64,000 bases of DNA from NCBI RefSeq assembly GCF_003633715.1, contig NZ_RBIE01000001.1, forward strand, positions 310,001 through 374,000, read 5' to 3'. This DNA comes from Thermovibrio guaymasensis. GTDB taxonomy: Bacteria > Aquificota > Aquificia > Desulfurobacteriales > Desulfurobacteriaceae. This document shows positions 813 to 52,895 of the stretch, one piece after another. The notes under the pieces were generated by a model. It had not been told where the DNA came from, made no database searches, and saw only the letters and a program-made list of their open reading frames with translations. Every line of letters begins with the position of its first letter. Within the stretch, counting starts at the first letter, position 1. Position numbers and translations under genes: made by a program.

Positions 813-2825
813 ATGAGGAAATTTCTTATATTTAGTCTTATTTCAAGTATTATTTTTTCCTGTGGAGGGAGCCTTCAAGATACTTCATCGGCTCCTTCTA
901 CAGTAGACCATAACCCCGTTGATAGGAGTTATCTGGTGTTTGACCCTCTTTCAAGGGACTCGGAGGCTTCCCTTGGAATACCCTTTCCTAATGATATTTT
1001 TTGGGAAGAAGGGGTTGTAAAGATAGATACAAGTAAAGTTGAAGACCCATCAAAACGGGTTTTCTACCAAGCTATAAATTCTCTAAACTTGAAAGGACTT
1101 TCTCCTAATACACCTATTTTTATTCCCCTTTCAAGGAGCAATCCTATAGATCTGAGTTCGTTAAAGGGGAAGTTCTTGCTGATTGATCTTACAAACCTCC
1201 AATCTCTTCAGAGTAAAGGAAGTTCTCCTTTACCTGTTCAATTGGTTCTTCAAACTTCAAGACTTAAACCTTTACAGGATGGAAATTACCTTAAGTTTTA
1301 TCCCATTAAACCCCTTGAAGCGGGCCATCGGTATCTATTTGTTATCTTTTCAGGAATAAGAGACTTAAATGGAAAAGAGGTTCTTCCTCCTCAAATTTAC
1401 AACCAACTTGAATCGGAAAAGCCTTTGGCCGATCCTCAGCTTGAGAAGTTAAGGGAGCTCTATAGGAAGGAAATTTACGATGGCCTATTTCCAACCTTAT
1501 CTCAGCTTTTGGGAGTAAAGCTGAATGAGGATACGGTAGCAGAGGCATTTACTTTTACTACTGCGGATAAAACTCTTTCTACGGCCGATTTAGGAGCAGT
1601 TAAGGCTTTCCTTGAGGGAGAGACTTCTACTTTAAAAATCTCCGGGCTTCCTTATTCTTCGGTTAATCAGGACTTTGCTTCTATCCTACAACCTCTTTCT
1701 AATCAGAACTTCGTTAACTTCTTGAAGGGACTTGCCCTTAGTTACAGCCAAAGGTATGGAAAAACTCTCTTTCCGGCATTGAGTATTAGAAAACTCAATG
1801 ACTTTTTAGAAGCCCTTCAAAAGGTTTCCTCCGGTGAGGTTTCCTTAGGTGACGTAAACTGGGAGGAGTTTATCAAGTTCATTCCAGTATTTATTGGCAA
1901 TCAAGAGCTTTATAGCGGTAAGGTTTATATTTTCCAGCACGGCCTTGGTAGTGTAAAGGAGAGGGCACTTAATTTACTTGAAGGTGTGAAACTTCCGGTA
2001 GTTGCTATAGACCTTCCACTCCATGGAGAATATACAACTTTAACCGGTTCTCAGGAAATTGACCCAAGTTGTACTGCTGAGGTAAATGGGAAAGTTGTTG
2101 GTAGTGGAAAGTGTTTCTTAACTTCAGATGTTACTTCAAATAGGCTTAATATTTATCAGGCCGCCTTTAATATCCTTCTCCTTGAAAAGCTCTTATCTCA
2201 AGGTACTTATGACCTTGACGGTGACGGTTCCCTTGATACTCCTAAAGAGATTAACTTTGTTGGTGTTTCAATGGGAGCTATTACGGGAGAGCTAGCTTAC
2301 GCAAACTCATCAGATATTAGCAGGGCGGTGTTTAGCGTTGGAGGAGGAAACTACGTTTCAATAATTGATAGTGCACAAAATGACCTTATAGAGGGACTTC
2401 TATCTGCAATGGGATTAAAGAAAAACTCAAACGCTTACGCCGTTACCTTAGGTTTGTTCCAGCTCATTCTTGACACAGCGGACCCTTCTTTCTTCTCTCT
2501 GAACTCAGAGAAGGCCTCAAAGACCCTTTTTCAGAGCGCCTGTTGTGATACTGTTGTTCCTCCTGTTTCAAACTCCTCCTTTGCAACTGCGCTCTTTGGA
2601 GAGGGAGCAACGCCTGTTTACCTTAAGGACTTTGAGGACTTTAATAGCCCTCCAGTAGAGCCTGGCTGGTACGTTTATGGATATAGTGATAACTGGGTTA
2701 TTCATAGTTTCCTAATTCACTGGAACCTTAAAAGTTATCCTGAAGTAGCTCCTCATACGAGTTTAGATTACCTTAAGGCTGCAACAGAGGGAGCTCAGAA
2801 GCAAGTTTATCTATTCCTTAAGTAA
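813..2825 (+). CDS. VolA/Pla-1-type surface lipase lipoprotein
   Basis: 670 residues starting at ATG 813 behind GGGGGAG. The N-terminus is a lipoprotein signal with the modified Cys at residue 17 (IIFSC). The next part, with VFDPLSRDSEASLGIPFPND, matches the N-terminal region of the bacterial virulence factor lipase family. The second half carries an alpha/beta-hydrolase core: IFQHGLGSVKE, then AIDLPLHGEY, then DLDGDGSLDTP just before the nucleophile elbow GVSMG (Ser about residue 486). That order is typical of VolA and Pla-1/cef extracellular lipases, which release fatty acids from lysophospholipids at the cell surface. The FadL-type channel directly upstream is the expected partner. The acid and His of the triad were not assigned. 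The 3' end overlaps the convergent ABC ATPase gene by 15 bases. Confidence 0.78.
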   Translation: MRKFLIFSLISSIIFSCGGSLQDTSSAPSTVDHNPVDRSYLVFDPLSRDSEASLGIPFPNDIFWEEGVVKIDTSKVEDPSKRVFYQAINSLNLKGLSPNTPIFIPLSRSNPIDLSSLKGKFLLIDLTNLQSLQSKGSSPLPVQLVLQTSRLKPLQDGNYLKFYPIKPLEAGHRYLFVIFSGIRDLNGKEVLPPQIYNQLESEKPLADPQLEKLRELYRKEIYDGLFPTLSQLLGVKLNEDTVAEAFTFTTADKTLSTADLGAVKAFLEGETSTLKISGLPYSSVNQDFASILQPLSNQNFVNFLKGLALSYSQRYGKTLFPALSIRKLNDFLEALQKVSSGEVSLGDVNWEEFIKFIPVFIGNQELYSGKVYIFQHGLGSVKERALNLLEGVKLPVVAIDLPLHGEYTTLTGSQEIDPSCTAEVNGKVVGSGKCFLTSDVTSNRLNIYQAAFNILLLEKLLSQGTYDLDGDGSLDTPKEINFVGVSMGAITGELAYANSSDISRAVFSVGGGNYVSIIDSAQNDLIEGLLSAMGLKKNSNAYAVTLGLFQLILDTADPSFFSLNSEKASKTLFQSACCDTVVPPVSNSSFATALFGEGATPVYLKDFEDFNSPPVEPGWYVYGYSDNWVIHSFLIHWNLKSYPEVAPHTSLDYLKAATEGAQKQVYLFLK

Positions 2826-49799: not shown

Positions 49800-49828
49800 T
49801 TGCTATTGTCCCCCTTAAAGCATATAAT
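49800..49828 (+). promoter_or_regulatory. Sigma70-type promoter for rpsU
   Basis: TTGCTA at 49800-49805 and a perfect TATAAT at 49823-49828 are spaced by exactly 17 bases. The start of transcription would be near 49835, giving a 30-base leader with AAAGGAGG before rpsU. Confidence 0.72.
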
Positions 49829-49865
49829 TGCCTGCGAAAAACCTAAAGAAAGGAGGCGATGCTTT

Positions 49866-50093
49866 ATGGCAACAGTTTACGTCCGCGACGGTGAGCCCTT
49901 TGAGAAGGCCTTAAAGAGGTTTAAGAAGCTCTGCGAAAGAGAAGGAATCCTCACAGAGATTAAGAGGAGAGAGTACTACGAGAAGCCCTCTGAGAAGAGA
50001 AAGAGAAAGGCTATGGCGGCCAGGAAGAGGTTAATTAAGGCCCTCAAGAAGCGCGGACTCTTACCACCTAAGGGTAAGAAGAAGAAAAAGTAA
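49866..50093 (+). CDS. rpsU: 30S ribosomal protein S21
   Basis: 75 residues from ATG 49866 ([21 protein letters not shown]), chosen over an upstream in-frame start that would lie in front of the promoter. The AAAGGAGG site precedes it. S21 sits near the anti-Shine-Dalgarno end of 16S rRNA and helps initiation. The basic tail (ending PPKGKKKKK) is longer than usual. It has its own strong promoter and yqeY follows after 9 bases. Confidence 0.95.
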
Positions 50094-50102
50094 GGAGAGA
50101 GA

Positions 50103-50552
50103 ATGAGCCTTAAGGAAAGGTTGAAAGAGGATATGAAGGCAGCCTTAAAGGCCAAGGATAAGGAGAAGCTCTCTGTAATTAGGATGCTTCAGGCTCTAAT
50201 AAAGAACGCTGAGATTGATAAGAGAGGAGAGCTTACCGACGAAGAGATTATCTCTCTCCTCCAGAAGTACGCAAAGCAGAGGAGAGAGTCTATAGAGATG
50301 TACGAAAAGGGCGGAAGGCAGGACCTTGTTGAGAAGGAGAAGAGGGAGCTTGAGATTGTAGAGAGCTACCTCCCCAAGCAGATGAGCGAAGAGGAGATAA
50401 GGGAGCTTGTAGCTGAGGTTATTAAGGAAGTTGGAGCTTCCTCTCCTAAAGACCTCGGCAAGGTTATGCAGGCTGTAATGCCGAAGGTAAAAGGCAGGGC
50501 TAATGGTTCACTGGTTAACAGAGTTGTTAGGGAACTTCTTGCCCAAGGTTAG
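50103..50552 (+). CDS. yqeY: GatB/YqeY-domain protein
   Basis: 149 residues behind AAGGAGAGA. YqeY family: LKERLKEDMKAALKAKDKEKLSVIRMLQALIKNAEID at the start, ELTDEEIISLLQKYAKQRRESIEMYEKGGRQDLVEKE in the middle and KDLGKVMQAVMPKVKGRANGSLVNRVVRELL at the end, the tail domain shared with GatB that probably contacts tRNA. The rpsU-yqeY order is widely conserved in bacteria (rpsU-yqeY-dnaG or similar). The function of free YqeY is unclear. Confidence 0.93.
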   Translation: MSLKERLKEDMKAALKAKDKEKLSVIRMLQALIKNAEIDKRGELTDEEIISLLQKYAKQRRESIEMYEKGGRQDLVEKEKRELEIVESYLPKQMSEEEIRELVAEVIKEVGASSPKDLGKVMQAVMPKVKGRANGSLVNRVVRELLAQG

Positions 50553-50565
50553 GTTTTGTTATACT
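50539..50565 (+). promoter_or_regulatory. Promoter upstream of mutS2
   Basis: TTGCCC at 50539-50544 and TATACT at 50560-50565, spacing 15 bases. Transcription would begin near 50572, so the 60-base leader would contain the first arm of the stem-loop around the mutS2 start. Confidence 0.45.
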
Positions 50566-50589
50566 ATCTATTTAGAAGTGGTTAGTTCC

Positions 50590-50655
50590 GGCGCCTTCAC
50601 TCCTTTGGTGATTGGAGGGGGGTCTTCATACTGATGTTCAAAGGAGTGGGGCGCC
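50590..50655 (+). promoter_or_regulatory. Long stem-loop enclosing the mutS2 ribosome site and start codon
   Basis: Arm 1 is GGCGCC-T-TC-ACTCCTTT (50590-50606), arm 2 is AAAGGAGT-GG-GGCGCC (50640-50655). They pair over 16 positions with one bulged T (50596) and one G-U pair. The 33-base loop holds GGAGGGGGG (50614-50622) and the ATG at 50634. The CTCC in arm 1 could instead pair with the GGAG in the loop, giving a second shape that hides the ribosome site. Confidence 0.5.
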
Positions 50656-52895
50656 AACTTGAATACGATAAGCTCCTCTATGAAACTTCTCGCCTTGCAA
50701 AAAGTTCTGCAGGAAAGGATAGGGTTCTTTCACTTCAACCTTCGGTAAACTACCAGGAAGTTAATAGGAACTTAGAGCTAACAGACTCTTTCGTTAAACT
50801 CCTAAAAGAGAGGACTCTACCCCTTGAGACCTTTCCCGACGTTTCACCTCTAATTGAAAAGCTGAAAGTTGAAGGGTCCGTTCTATCGGTTGAGGAGCTC
50901 TTAAACCTCCTTAAACTCCTTGAGCAGTCAAGGGTTTTGAAGAACTTCTTTAAAAACCTTCCTGAGCACCTTTCCAGGATCTCCTTCTACTCTGAAAGGT
51001 TAACAGGTGGTGGTGAGCTCCTAGAAAGGTTAAGGGAAAGCGTAGACGAAAGCGGTGAGATACTTGATACAGCTTCGCCACAGCTGAGGAGCATAAGAAA
51101 AAACATCTCTACAGTCTCATCACGGATAAAAGAGAGGTTAAACTCATTAGTTAATCGCCACGAGGATATCTGTCCAGACAGGATTATTACGGAGAGGGAA
51201 GGTAGGTACGTTATTCTCGTTAAGCCCCACTTTAGGAAGAGGTTTCAGGCAATAGTTCACGACCGCTCTTCAAGTGGCCAAACCTTCTACGTTGAGCCTC
51301 TGAGTGTCGTTGAGCTGAACAACAGGCTCAGGGAGCTTAAGAGGGAAGAGGCTGAGGAGGTAAGGAGGGTTTTAAGGGAGCTCTCAAACCTTGCCCGCTC
51401 CTACTTATCTGAAATTGAGAGTTCCTTTAAGGCTTTAGTAGAGATTGACTTCCGATACGCCGTTGCTTACATGAGCTTAAAGTTGTCGGGAACTTTTCCG
51501 ACCTTTGGCAGGGAGTTTAACCTTAAAGGAGCAAAGCACCCTCTATTAATCCTTACAGGTAAAGAAGTTGTTCCGGTTGACCTAAAGCTTAAAAGGGGCC
51601 TTGTTATAACCGGTCCAAACACAGGAGGTAAAACTGTCTCCCTTAAGACTCTCGGCCTTCTATCAATGATGGCTCAGAGCGGCTTTTTAATTCCTGCCCA
51701 GGAAGGGAGCTCCCTCCTCTTTGTAAGAAAGTGGTTTTCTGATATCGGAGATGAGCAGAGTATAGAGCAGTCCCTCTCAACTTTCAGCTCCCACGTTAAG
51801 AGGATAGGTGAGATTTTGAGGGAAGTTGATGAGGACTCACTAGTCCTCCTTGACGAGCTTGGGGCCGGGACGGATCCCGTTGAAGGTTCAGCCCTTGCAG
51901 TTGCGATCCTTAAGTACTTAAAAGATAAGAAGGCAAAGGTAGTTGCAACTACCCACTTTACTCCGGTAAAGCTCTACGCCTATAAGGACGATTACTACGA
52001 CGTTGCCTCAGTTCTCTTTGATGAAGAGAGCCTAAAGCCCCTCTATAAGCTTGCCTACGGCGTTGTAGGTAAGAGCTACGCTCTCATAGTAGCTAAGAGG
52101 TACGGTATCCCCGAAGAGGTTGTAGAGACCGCAAGGTCTTTGATGGGGGCTGAGGATAGAATGGCTGAAGAGATAATTGAGGCCCTTGAGAGAGAGTATA
52201 AGAAACTCGTTGAGGAGAGGAGGGAGGTTGAGAGGTTAAAGAGGGAGCTTAAGGAGAAAGAGGAGGAGCTCTTTAGGAAGGAGAGGACTTTAAGGGAAGA
52301 GCACTCAAGGAAGCTAAAGGAGTTTATTGAGGAGTTAAGGAGTAAGACTGAGGAGATACTAAAGGAGAGGGAAGCTTCAAAGGCAAGGGAAAAGCTTAGG
52401 AAGTTGGTTATAACTGCGAAAAACAGGGCAAAACTTGAGGAAGAGGTTAAGCCTAAGGGGGAGATTAAGGTTGGTGATTTGGTAAAGGTTCTCCCTTCAG
52501 GGAGGAAAGGAAGGGTTATTGAGGTATCTGGAAAGAAGGCAAAGGTCTTGATAGGTCCTATGAAGGTTGACGTTAAGCTTTCAAACTTAGTTAAAGTTGA
52601 AGAAGTTCCAAAGGAAGAGAGTTTAGGAGTTAGCGTTCCGGTTCCGAATAGATTCTTCCCTGAGATTAAGCTTCTTGGTATGAGGGGGGAAGAGGCCATA
52701 AGGGCCCTTGAGGAGTTCCTTGACGATGCTTTGATTGTGGGAGCTAAAGAGGTAAAAGTCGTTCACGGTTACGGTGAGGGAATTCTAAAGAGGCTTGTAA
52801 GGGAGTATTTAAAGGAGTCTCCCTACGTTAAGTCCTTCCGTTCCGGAGGCCCTCAGGAGGGAGGAGATGGAGTAACTATCGTTGAGCTCAAGTAG
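50634..52895 (+). CDS. mutS2: Endonuclease MutS2
   Basis: 753 residues. ATP-dependent relative of MutS that acts on branched DNA or on collided ribosomes rather than mismatches. Seen: a helical clamp region (residues 1-300), Walker A TGPNTGGKTVSLKTLG near 325-335, DEQSIEQSLSTFSSH and the Walker B LVLLDELGAGTDPVEGSAL, a long charged coiled coil (about 510-610), then a KOW-like part (GDLVKVLPSGRKGRVIEV) and a C-terminal Smr domain (KLLGMRGEEAIRALEEFLDD, VVHGYGEGILKRLVREYL). The Smr loop reads HGYGEG where HGKGTG is usual. The start codon lies inside a stem-loop. Confidence 0.95.
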   Translation: MFKGVGRQLEYDKLLYETSRLAKSSAGKDRVLSLQPSVNYQEVNRNLELTDSFVKLLKERTLPLETFPDVSPLIEKLKVEGSVLSVEELLNLLKLLEQSRVLKNFFKNLPEHLSRISFYSERLTGGGELLERLRESVDESGEILDTASPQLRSIRKNISTVSSRIKERLNSLVNRHEDICPDRIITEREGRYVILVKPHFRKRFQAIVHDRSSSGQTFYVEPLSVVELNNRLRELKREEAEEVRRVLRELSNLARSYLSEIESSFKALVEIDFRYAVAYMSLKLSGTFPTFGREFNLKGAKHPLLILTGKEVVPVDLKLKRGLVITGPNTGGKTVSLKTLGLLSMMAQSGFLIPAQEGSSLLFVRKWFSDIGDEQSIEQSLSTFSSHVKRIGEILREVDEDSLVLLDELGAGTDPVEGSALAVAILKYLKDKKAKVVATTHFTPVKLYAYKDDYYDVASVLFDEESLKPLYKLAYGVVGKSYALIVAKRYGIPEEVVETARSLMGAEDRMAEEIIEALEREYKKLVEERREVERLKRELKEKEEELFRKERTLREEHSRKLKEFIEELRSKTEEILKEREASKAREKLRKLVITAKNRAKLEEEVKPKGEIKVGDLVKVLPSGRKGRVIEVSGKKAKVLIGPMKVDVKLSNLVKVEEVPKEESLGVSVPVPNRFFPEIKLLGMRGEEAIRALEEFLDDALIVGAKEVKVVHGYGEGILKRLVREYLKESPYVKSFRSGGPQEGGDGVTIVELK

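Follow-up and report, generated by a model that had tools for sequence, protein, structure and literature searches.

The mutS2 start codon in the window, a stretch of 64,000 nucleotides (positions 310001-374000 of a contig in a 1.6-Mb genome, G000), lies in the loop of a hairpin that is an RNA element specific to the heat-loving Desulfurobacteriaceae, tied to mutS2 and without an Rfam match at gathering score. The hairpin in the window was confirmed. Its stem is almost certainly selected as RNA, and the element, apparently undescribed so far, probably controls the amount of MutS2 made. A conserved RNA placed on the mutS2 start would give a direct handle on how bacteria adjust their MutS2 level.

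The hairpin (50590-50655; 17 pairs, one bulge; Table 1) was predicted with a minimum free energy of -35.9 kcal/mol for 50580-50665 (z -3.47), and none of 200 shuffles was equally stable. A stem-loop at the mutS2 start had been proposed in an earlier note on this DNA and was borne out by fold, shuffles and family alignment; the sixteen pairs and one bulge counted there were found as well, and become 17 pairs if U-G is included. As also described there, the ribosome-site-like run (GGAGGGGGG, 50614-50622) and the ATG (50634) were located in the loop, and the leader arm pairs with codons 3-8; precisely, the 3' arm opens on the third base of codon 2 and closes on the first of codon 8. Genes are ordered rpsU (bS21), yqeY, hairpin and mutS2. 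The mutS2 product carries MutS_V, MSSS SH3 and Smr domains (Pfam PF00488, PF20297 and PF01713) and passed the TIGR01069 equivalog cut-off.

Table 1. Coordinates of the hairpin and adjoining features (window positions unless a contig is named).
Feature	Coordinates	Strand	Basis and remarks
yqeY (YqeY-like protein), next gene upstream of hairpin	50103..50552	+	Pfam PF09424, E 2.8e-57
-10-like element TATACT	50560..50565	+	Sequence; TGT at 50557-50559 just before (extended -10)
Possible leader frame with GTG start, through 5' arm and loop (tentative)	50578..50634	+	TGA overlaps mutS2 ATG
Hairpin 5' arm, one bulged base	50590-50607	+	Fold prediction, family alignment
Hairpin loop, 31 nt, conserved core ATTGGAGGGGGG...TTCATACT, with G-rich run and mutS2 ATG inside	50608-50638	+	Alignment of 18
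Hairpin 3' arm, mutS2 codon 2 (last base) to codon 8 (first base)	50639-50655	+	Fold, alignment, codon control
mutS2, start codon in hairpin loop	50634..52895	+	NCBIfam TIGR01069, 829 bits (cut-off 400)
G008 hairpin, without mutS2	G008:C2 (L048) 1501-1564	-	TATAAT before, TTTCTATTTTTTT after, rpoD convergent

The element was found just after yqeY in 18 of 22 Desulfurobacteriaceae genomes, and mutS2 follows it directly in 17 of the 18 copies, the exception being genome G008. MutS2 itself was found in 60 of the 61 genomes searched. Covariance model R1, for which 10 rows with arms and loops of equal length were taken out of an initial 16, was run over 136 Aquificota genomes. One strong match (E 2e-9 or better) was obtained in each of 18 of the 22 family genomes, and weak matches only in the 114 others (best E 0.06); five matches outside the family with E 0.06-0.86 were treated as noise. 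With model R2 (all 18 rows), searched over 24 genomes of the order, the same 18 were positive, G015 gave only E 0.61, and neither of the two sister-family genomes was positive. In three of the four family genomes without the hairpin (G010, G015, G020) the 5' end of mutS2 lies off the contig; the fourth, G012, has no mutS2 match in an assembly that is 62% complete. yqeY was also not found in G010, G012 and G015.

Apart from the hairpin and the opposite strand of it, G000 yielded only three R1 matches (E 2.07-5.83) at E up to 10. A second match in G005 (C1:95921, E 0.0075) was rejected as a short inverted repeat in which the loop letters recur only in part. Viral contigs contained no exact match to one hairpin pattern. 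Two matches, both Desulfurobacteriaceae, were returned from public contigs by a pattern with a fixed spacing of three bases from TTGG to ATT, which the variant in the window does not fit. With Rfam 15 and its gathering scores, one tRNA only was found in the whole window, with the hairpin matching no family or riboswitch class; at E up to 10, region 50500-50720 gave only sroH (E 7.9), a match that stops short of the stem.

Selection on the stem was assessed from pairing, covariation and codon use. In an alignment fitted to the structure by covariance model, bases paired in 99.2% of 255 cells (15 distinct rows of the 18, 17 pairs), and pairing dropped to 36-61% when the structure was slid by 1-3 columns as a control. 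Against a shuffle control that leaves row relatedness in, the covariation score was 0.334 versus 0.212 +/- 0.018 (0 of 500 shuffles as high). The earlier note had held that uncompensated substitutions in relatives would speak against the hairpin; the substitutions found were compensated, with 8 of the 17 pairs changed on both sides, a count reached by 2 of 500 shuffles. An independent simple register (fixed arm lengths, one gap) paired 271 of 272 cells on 16 rows, and RNAalifold on the model-fitted alignment returned the same stem plus one pair. MAFFT alignments A1 and A2, in which some stems were one base off register, were left out of the counts.

Hairpin identity between genomes was 0.76-0.85, against 0.34-0.47 in the 20-nt flanks; the loop, with 0.78 over all row pairs, is about as conserved as the stem. 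Identity at four-fold sites of MutS2 was 0.36-0.85 (ten pairs computed). For the codon control, 11 genomes whose loop carries the ATG were compared over 227 MutS2 columns with an invariant residue other than M or W. A single codon was kept in 6 columns, three of which are mutS2 codons 2-4, in or touching the hairpin (chance about 1e-5 by hand arithmetic). G011, the twelfth such genome, was excluded with its gene split over contigs; its codon 4 is GGG, and when it is counted two of the three hairpin codons stay invariant.

The mutS2 ATG lies in the loop in 12 of the 18 genomes, at 44 nt from the stem base in all 12 despite indels. The start is outside the loop in five genomes from two lineages. 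In the g6 genomes G013, G016, G018 and G021 the loop has ACG, and the first letter of the ATG is the sixth base past the stem. G002 lacks an ATG in its loop; its old frame hits TAG, and the likely start is >70 nt past the hairpin end. The GGAGGGGG run and the following TT(C/T)ATA are kept in all start-codon states and in G008 (in G009 the A of ATA has C after it, consistent with ATC). Because the loop letters persist after loss of the ATG, the loop is used for more than start-codon placement, which is not the conserved function of the hairpin. A MutS2 tree was computed from 17 family members with full-length MutS2 and two outgroup rows, and excludes G011, G010, G015 and G020 (split or partial) and G012 (none). 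On it, the family's deepest split has ATG-in-loop genomes in each of its two branches, so this arrangement is likely ancestral. The tree needs two changes, and its strongly supported branches alone force only one. The series of start in the loop, after the loop, far away and gene gone constitutes a natural experiment on the role of the loop.

The end of yqeY precedes the hairpin in all 18 upstream flanks (ends outside the computed neighbour set were recognised by eye), and in 16 of the 18 genomes the stretch from there to the stem contains TATAAT or TATACT. The script counted 15, versus 1.7 expected from shuffles; the sixteenth is the window's own element, skipped because a later GGTTAG was taken as the yqeY stop. 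TGn precedes the match in at least 9 genomes. In G009, G014, G017 and G019 the only match is 3 nt before the stem, and because of this spacing either RNA starts inside the stem or the match is not a promoter. A consensus scan of the window and G008 gave no full -35 plus -10 promoter. Taken from motif positions, transcription would start close before the stem. At L037, L034, L035, L036 and L039, from genera g3 (G005) and g7, a similar ATGG....ATAAT(C/T)G was seen just upstream of the stem; it may serve as leader start codon, as -10 element, or in both roles.

We consider it about an even chance that the mutS2 transcript begins with the hairpin as a leader RNA particular to this family, which would influence mutS2 initiation in cis by way of a putative loop-reading factor. 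A covarying structure conserved across species 5' of one gene, as found here before mutS2 in 17 of 18 copies, is what characterises cis-regulatory leaders. A promoter between yqeY and the hairpin would produce a mutS2 RNA led by the hairpin. In the presumed ancestral form, where the loop holds the start codon and the 3' arm holds codons 3-7, the folded stem would fall within the ribosome footprint and limit initiation. A putative factor recognising the conserved loop would stabilise or open the stem and thereby set MutS2 output. Candidate readers are MutS2 itself, bS21, or the 30S subunit via the GGAGGGGG run; what makes bS21 attractive is solely the position of its gene. Self-control by MutS2, raised in the earlier note, may operate, judging from gene neighbourhood only. 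In lineages with a moved start, the hairpin would remain upstream in the same transcript. Against such a cis-acting leader stand G002, whose hairpin is too far from the likely start for a direct block, and G008, which keeps the hairpin without mutS2. Control by CsrA was also considered and rejected: PF02599 was found in none of 22 genomes, 14 of them Desulfurobacteriaceae, and was positive in 3 of 14 control genomes.

Spacing of the initiation signals was compared within the window, taking the first ATG as start and the universal sequence as anti-SD. RF00177 gave no 16S rRNA match in the G000 genome, rated 99.98% complete; the gene is probably missing from the sequence used. GGAGG in the loop lies 15 nt from the mutS2 ATG. 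Among 37 window genes with an SD match the spacing was 0-8 in 25 and above 8 in 12; 7 of 44 genes had no match. Initiation of mutS2 therefore looks non-standard, and the spacing argument alone is weak. In G008, where mutS2 has no hairpin, GGAG is found at a distance of four bases from the ATG of the gene; together with the 15 nt in the window, this is what one would expect of a leader restricting ordinary initiation.

The earlier note had further suggested two exclusive shapes, acting as a switch or an RNA thermometer, since CTCC of the 5' arm can pair with GGAG in the loop instead. GGAG does occur in both loop and 3' arm, which gives CTCC two partners, and the alternative can be drawn on paper; computed on the window sequence alone, however, it is 11.7 kcal/mol (37 °C) or 9.9 kcal/mol (70 °C) less stable, so that the two helices are not comparable in stability. 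A thermometer is unlikely by the same modelling, in which the window stem stays folded to about 85 °C (mean pair probability at this temperature 0.82 in the upper and 0.96 in the lower stem), with the SD-like run and ATG in the loop rather than in the stem. We take the source organism to grow near 70 °C. Substitutions in relatives show no clear preference for the alternative. G008 has CTTC in the 5' and GAAG in the 3' arm, which restores a Watson-Crick stem, and keeps the loop GGAG, with which the alternative needs U-G; in G002 and G011, the 3' arm has GGGG, a change that makes the stem weaker but leaves the alternative unaffected. With an energy gap of 10-12 kcal/mol and the predicted heat stability, switch and thermometer were rejected as main explanations, and we regard this proposal as very improbable.

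The hairpin of genome G008 has yqeY upstream, TATAAT 9 nt before the stem, TTTCTATTTTTTT after it and a convergent rpoD; mutS2 lies on a different contig, behind a transposase-like end (assigned by eye). Six further genomes were inspected and have different sequence after rpoD, so G008 is the rearranged one. Near-identical C-terminal fragments, transposase-like by eye, lie beside rpsU (L048 2335-2535) and beside mutS2 (L012 2-217), which suggests that hairpin and mutS2 were separated with the involvement of an insertion element. The G008 copy is possibly a stand-alone small RNA gene. This would agree with a trans-acting small RNA of about 80 nt, released or separately transcribed, whose loop binds a protein, the 16S anti-SD or mRNAs, and to which mutS2 merely adjoins, having borrowed the loop for its start codon. 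All 17 pairs are kept in G008 and 55 of 65 columns match each of four g6 rows, while MutS2 four-fold identity between G008 and three g6 genomes is 0.36-0.39; the loop core also outlives the ATG in G002 and the four g6 genomes. We nevertheless hold such a small RNA to be rather unlikely. The other 17 copies directly precede mutS2, G008 is one genome whose divergence may partly predate the separation, and its seemingly specific stem changes are transitions, which easily keep pairing. No conserved complement was found: ACCCCCTCCAAT occurs 13 times in the 22 genomes, 9 of them the hairpin itself, in a search with one exact 12-mer that does not fit the GGAGGGGGG variant. A standard terminator scan did not score the G008 hairpin, whose loop is longer than the scan permits. 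A role at the 3' end of the rpsU-yqeY operon that has nothing to do with mutS2, whether in end protection, processing or termination, would explain the element's place after yqeY in every flank, including that of G008 with a T-run and no mutS2. The T-run that with a GC-rich stem makes an intrinsic terminator is absent after the other 17 hairpins, though; a 31-nt loop conserved about as well as the stem is not needed by a terminator or end-protector, and the -10 element that in 16 of 18 genomes comes after yqeY and ahead of the hairpin fits poorly. We consider a 3' element quite improbable.

MutS2 is a factor clearing stalled ribosomes, and ribosomes stalled in a leader could keep the stem open and raise MutS2, as in a leader-peptide attenuator. 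In 10 of the 18 genomes a frame opens with an ATG located after yqeY and ahead of the stem, and continues across 5' arm and loop; its stop overlaps the mutS2 ATG (TAATG or TGATG) in 9 of these (in G014 it ends 3 nt earlier), and in the four g6 genomes it extends to the relocated mutS2 start. The constant distance from stem base to ATG would be in keeping with this as well. The leader ATG is, however, absent in the remaining 8 genomes (G000 has GTG only; G007 and G011 have ATG only at or before the -10), so that a conserved upstream frame with a start codon was not seen across the family. The peptide also differs between groups (LVIGGGSSY versus LGNWRGYLY) owing to a frame shift in the middle, so conservation is of the RNA rather than of the peptide. 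The supposed frame conflicts with the only -10 match in G009, G014, G017 and G019, which it encloses, and an in-frame ATG is not rare by chance (p about 0.03 for 4 of 9 lineages in a rough hand estimate). Attenuation is improbable on this evidence. A more elaborate self-sensing collision circuit, in which leader ribosomes would be the sensor, a stall would keep the hairpin open so that MutS2 is made, and the G008 hairpin would be a free small RNA, is improbable in our estimation.

Among known systems, the preferred cis-acting leader comes close to the autogenous leader hairpins of ribosomal-protein and translation-factor mRNAs. Here too, the gene encodes a protein that acts on the ribosome, its start region is overlapped by a 5' hairpin, and the conserved loop is a possible protein site; unlike in that class, the mutS2 start codon itself is in the loop, the loop was kept after the start had left, and no Rfam leader matches. 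Translational attenuators of the erm/cat type have a leader frame through a hairpin containing the start region. The mutS2 hairpin shares this layout and differs in those genomes that have no ATG-started frame.

In the open-access literature, nothing was found on a mutS2/yqeY hairpin or on structured RNA of such kind in Desulfurobacteriaceae. The main text of a paper on Aquificales ncRNAs that covers two Desulfurobacteriaceae does not contain mutS, yqeY or rpsU (PMC4227106), and 'autoregulat' and 'leader' each have 0 occurrences in the main text of a MutS2 paper (PMC10897456). As far as searches of this literature showed, regulation of the amount of a collision-rescue factor such as MutS2 is undescribed in bacteria. 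Excerpts on arfA of E. coli, which encodes a ribosome-rescue factor, describe an mRNA stem-loop that yields non-stop mRNA by termination or RNase III cleavage, with ArfA synthesis regulated by trans-translation (PMC8012679); both hairpins lie in the mRNA of a ribosome-rescue protein, but that of mutS2 is at the 5' end of the gene. For Flavobacterium, sections of PMC9976891 report that rpsU is autoregulated through strong SD sequences, which ribosomes lacking bS21 favour. A strong SD-like run and bS21 are common to both cases, with rpsU two genes upstream of mutS2; in contrast to Flavobacterium rpsU, which acts on itself and for which those sections mention no hairpin, the target here would be mutS2, and the link is positional only.

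As a separate observation, rpsU stands two genes before mutS2 in the window (49800-50552). This neighbourhood may be functional, because bS21 in B. subtilis would, according to excerpts of PMC10897456, clash with the Smr domain of MutS2 on disomes or collided ribosomes.
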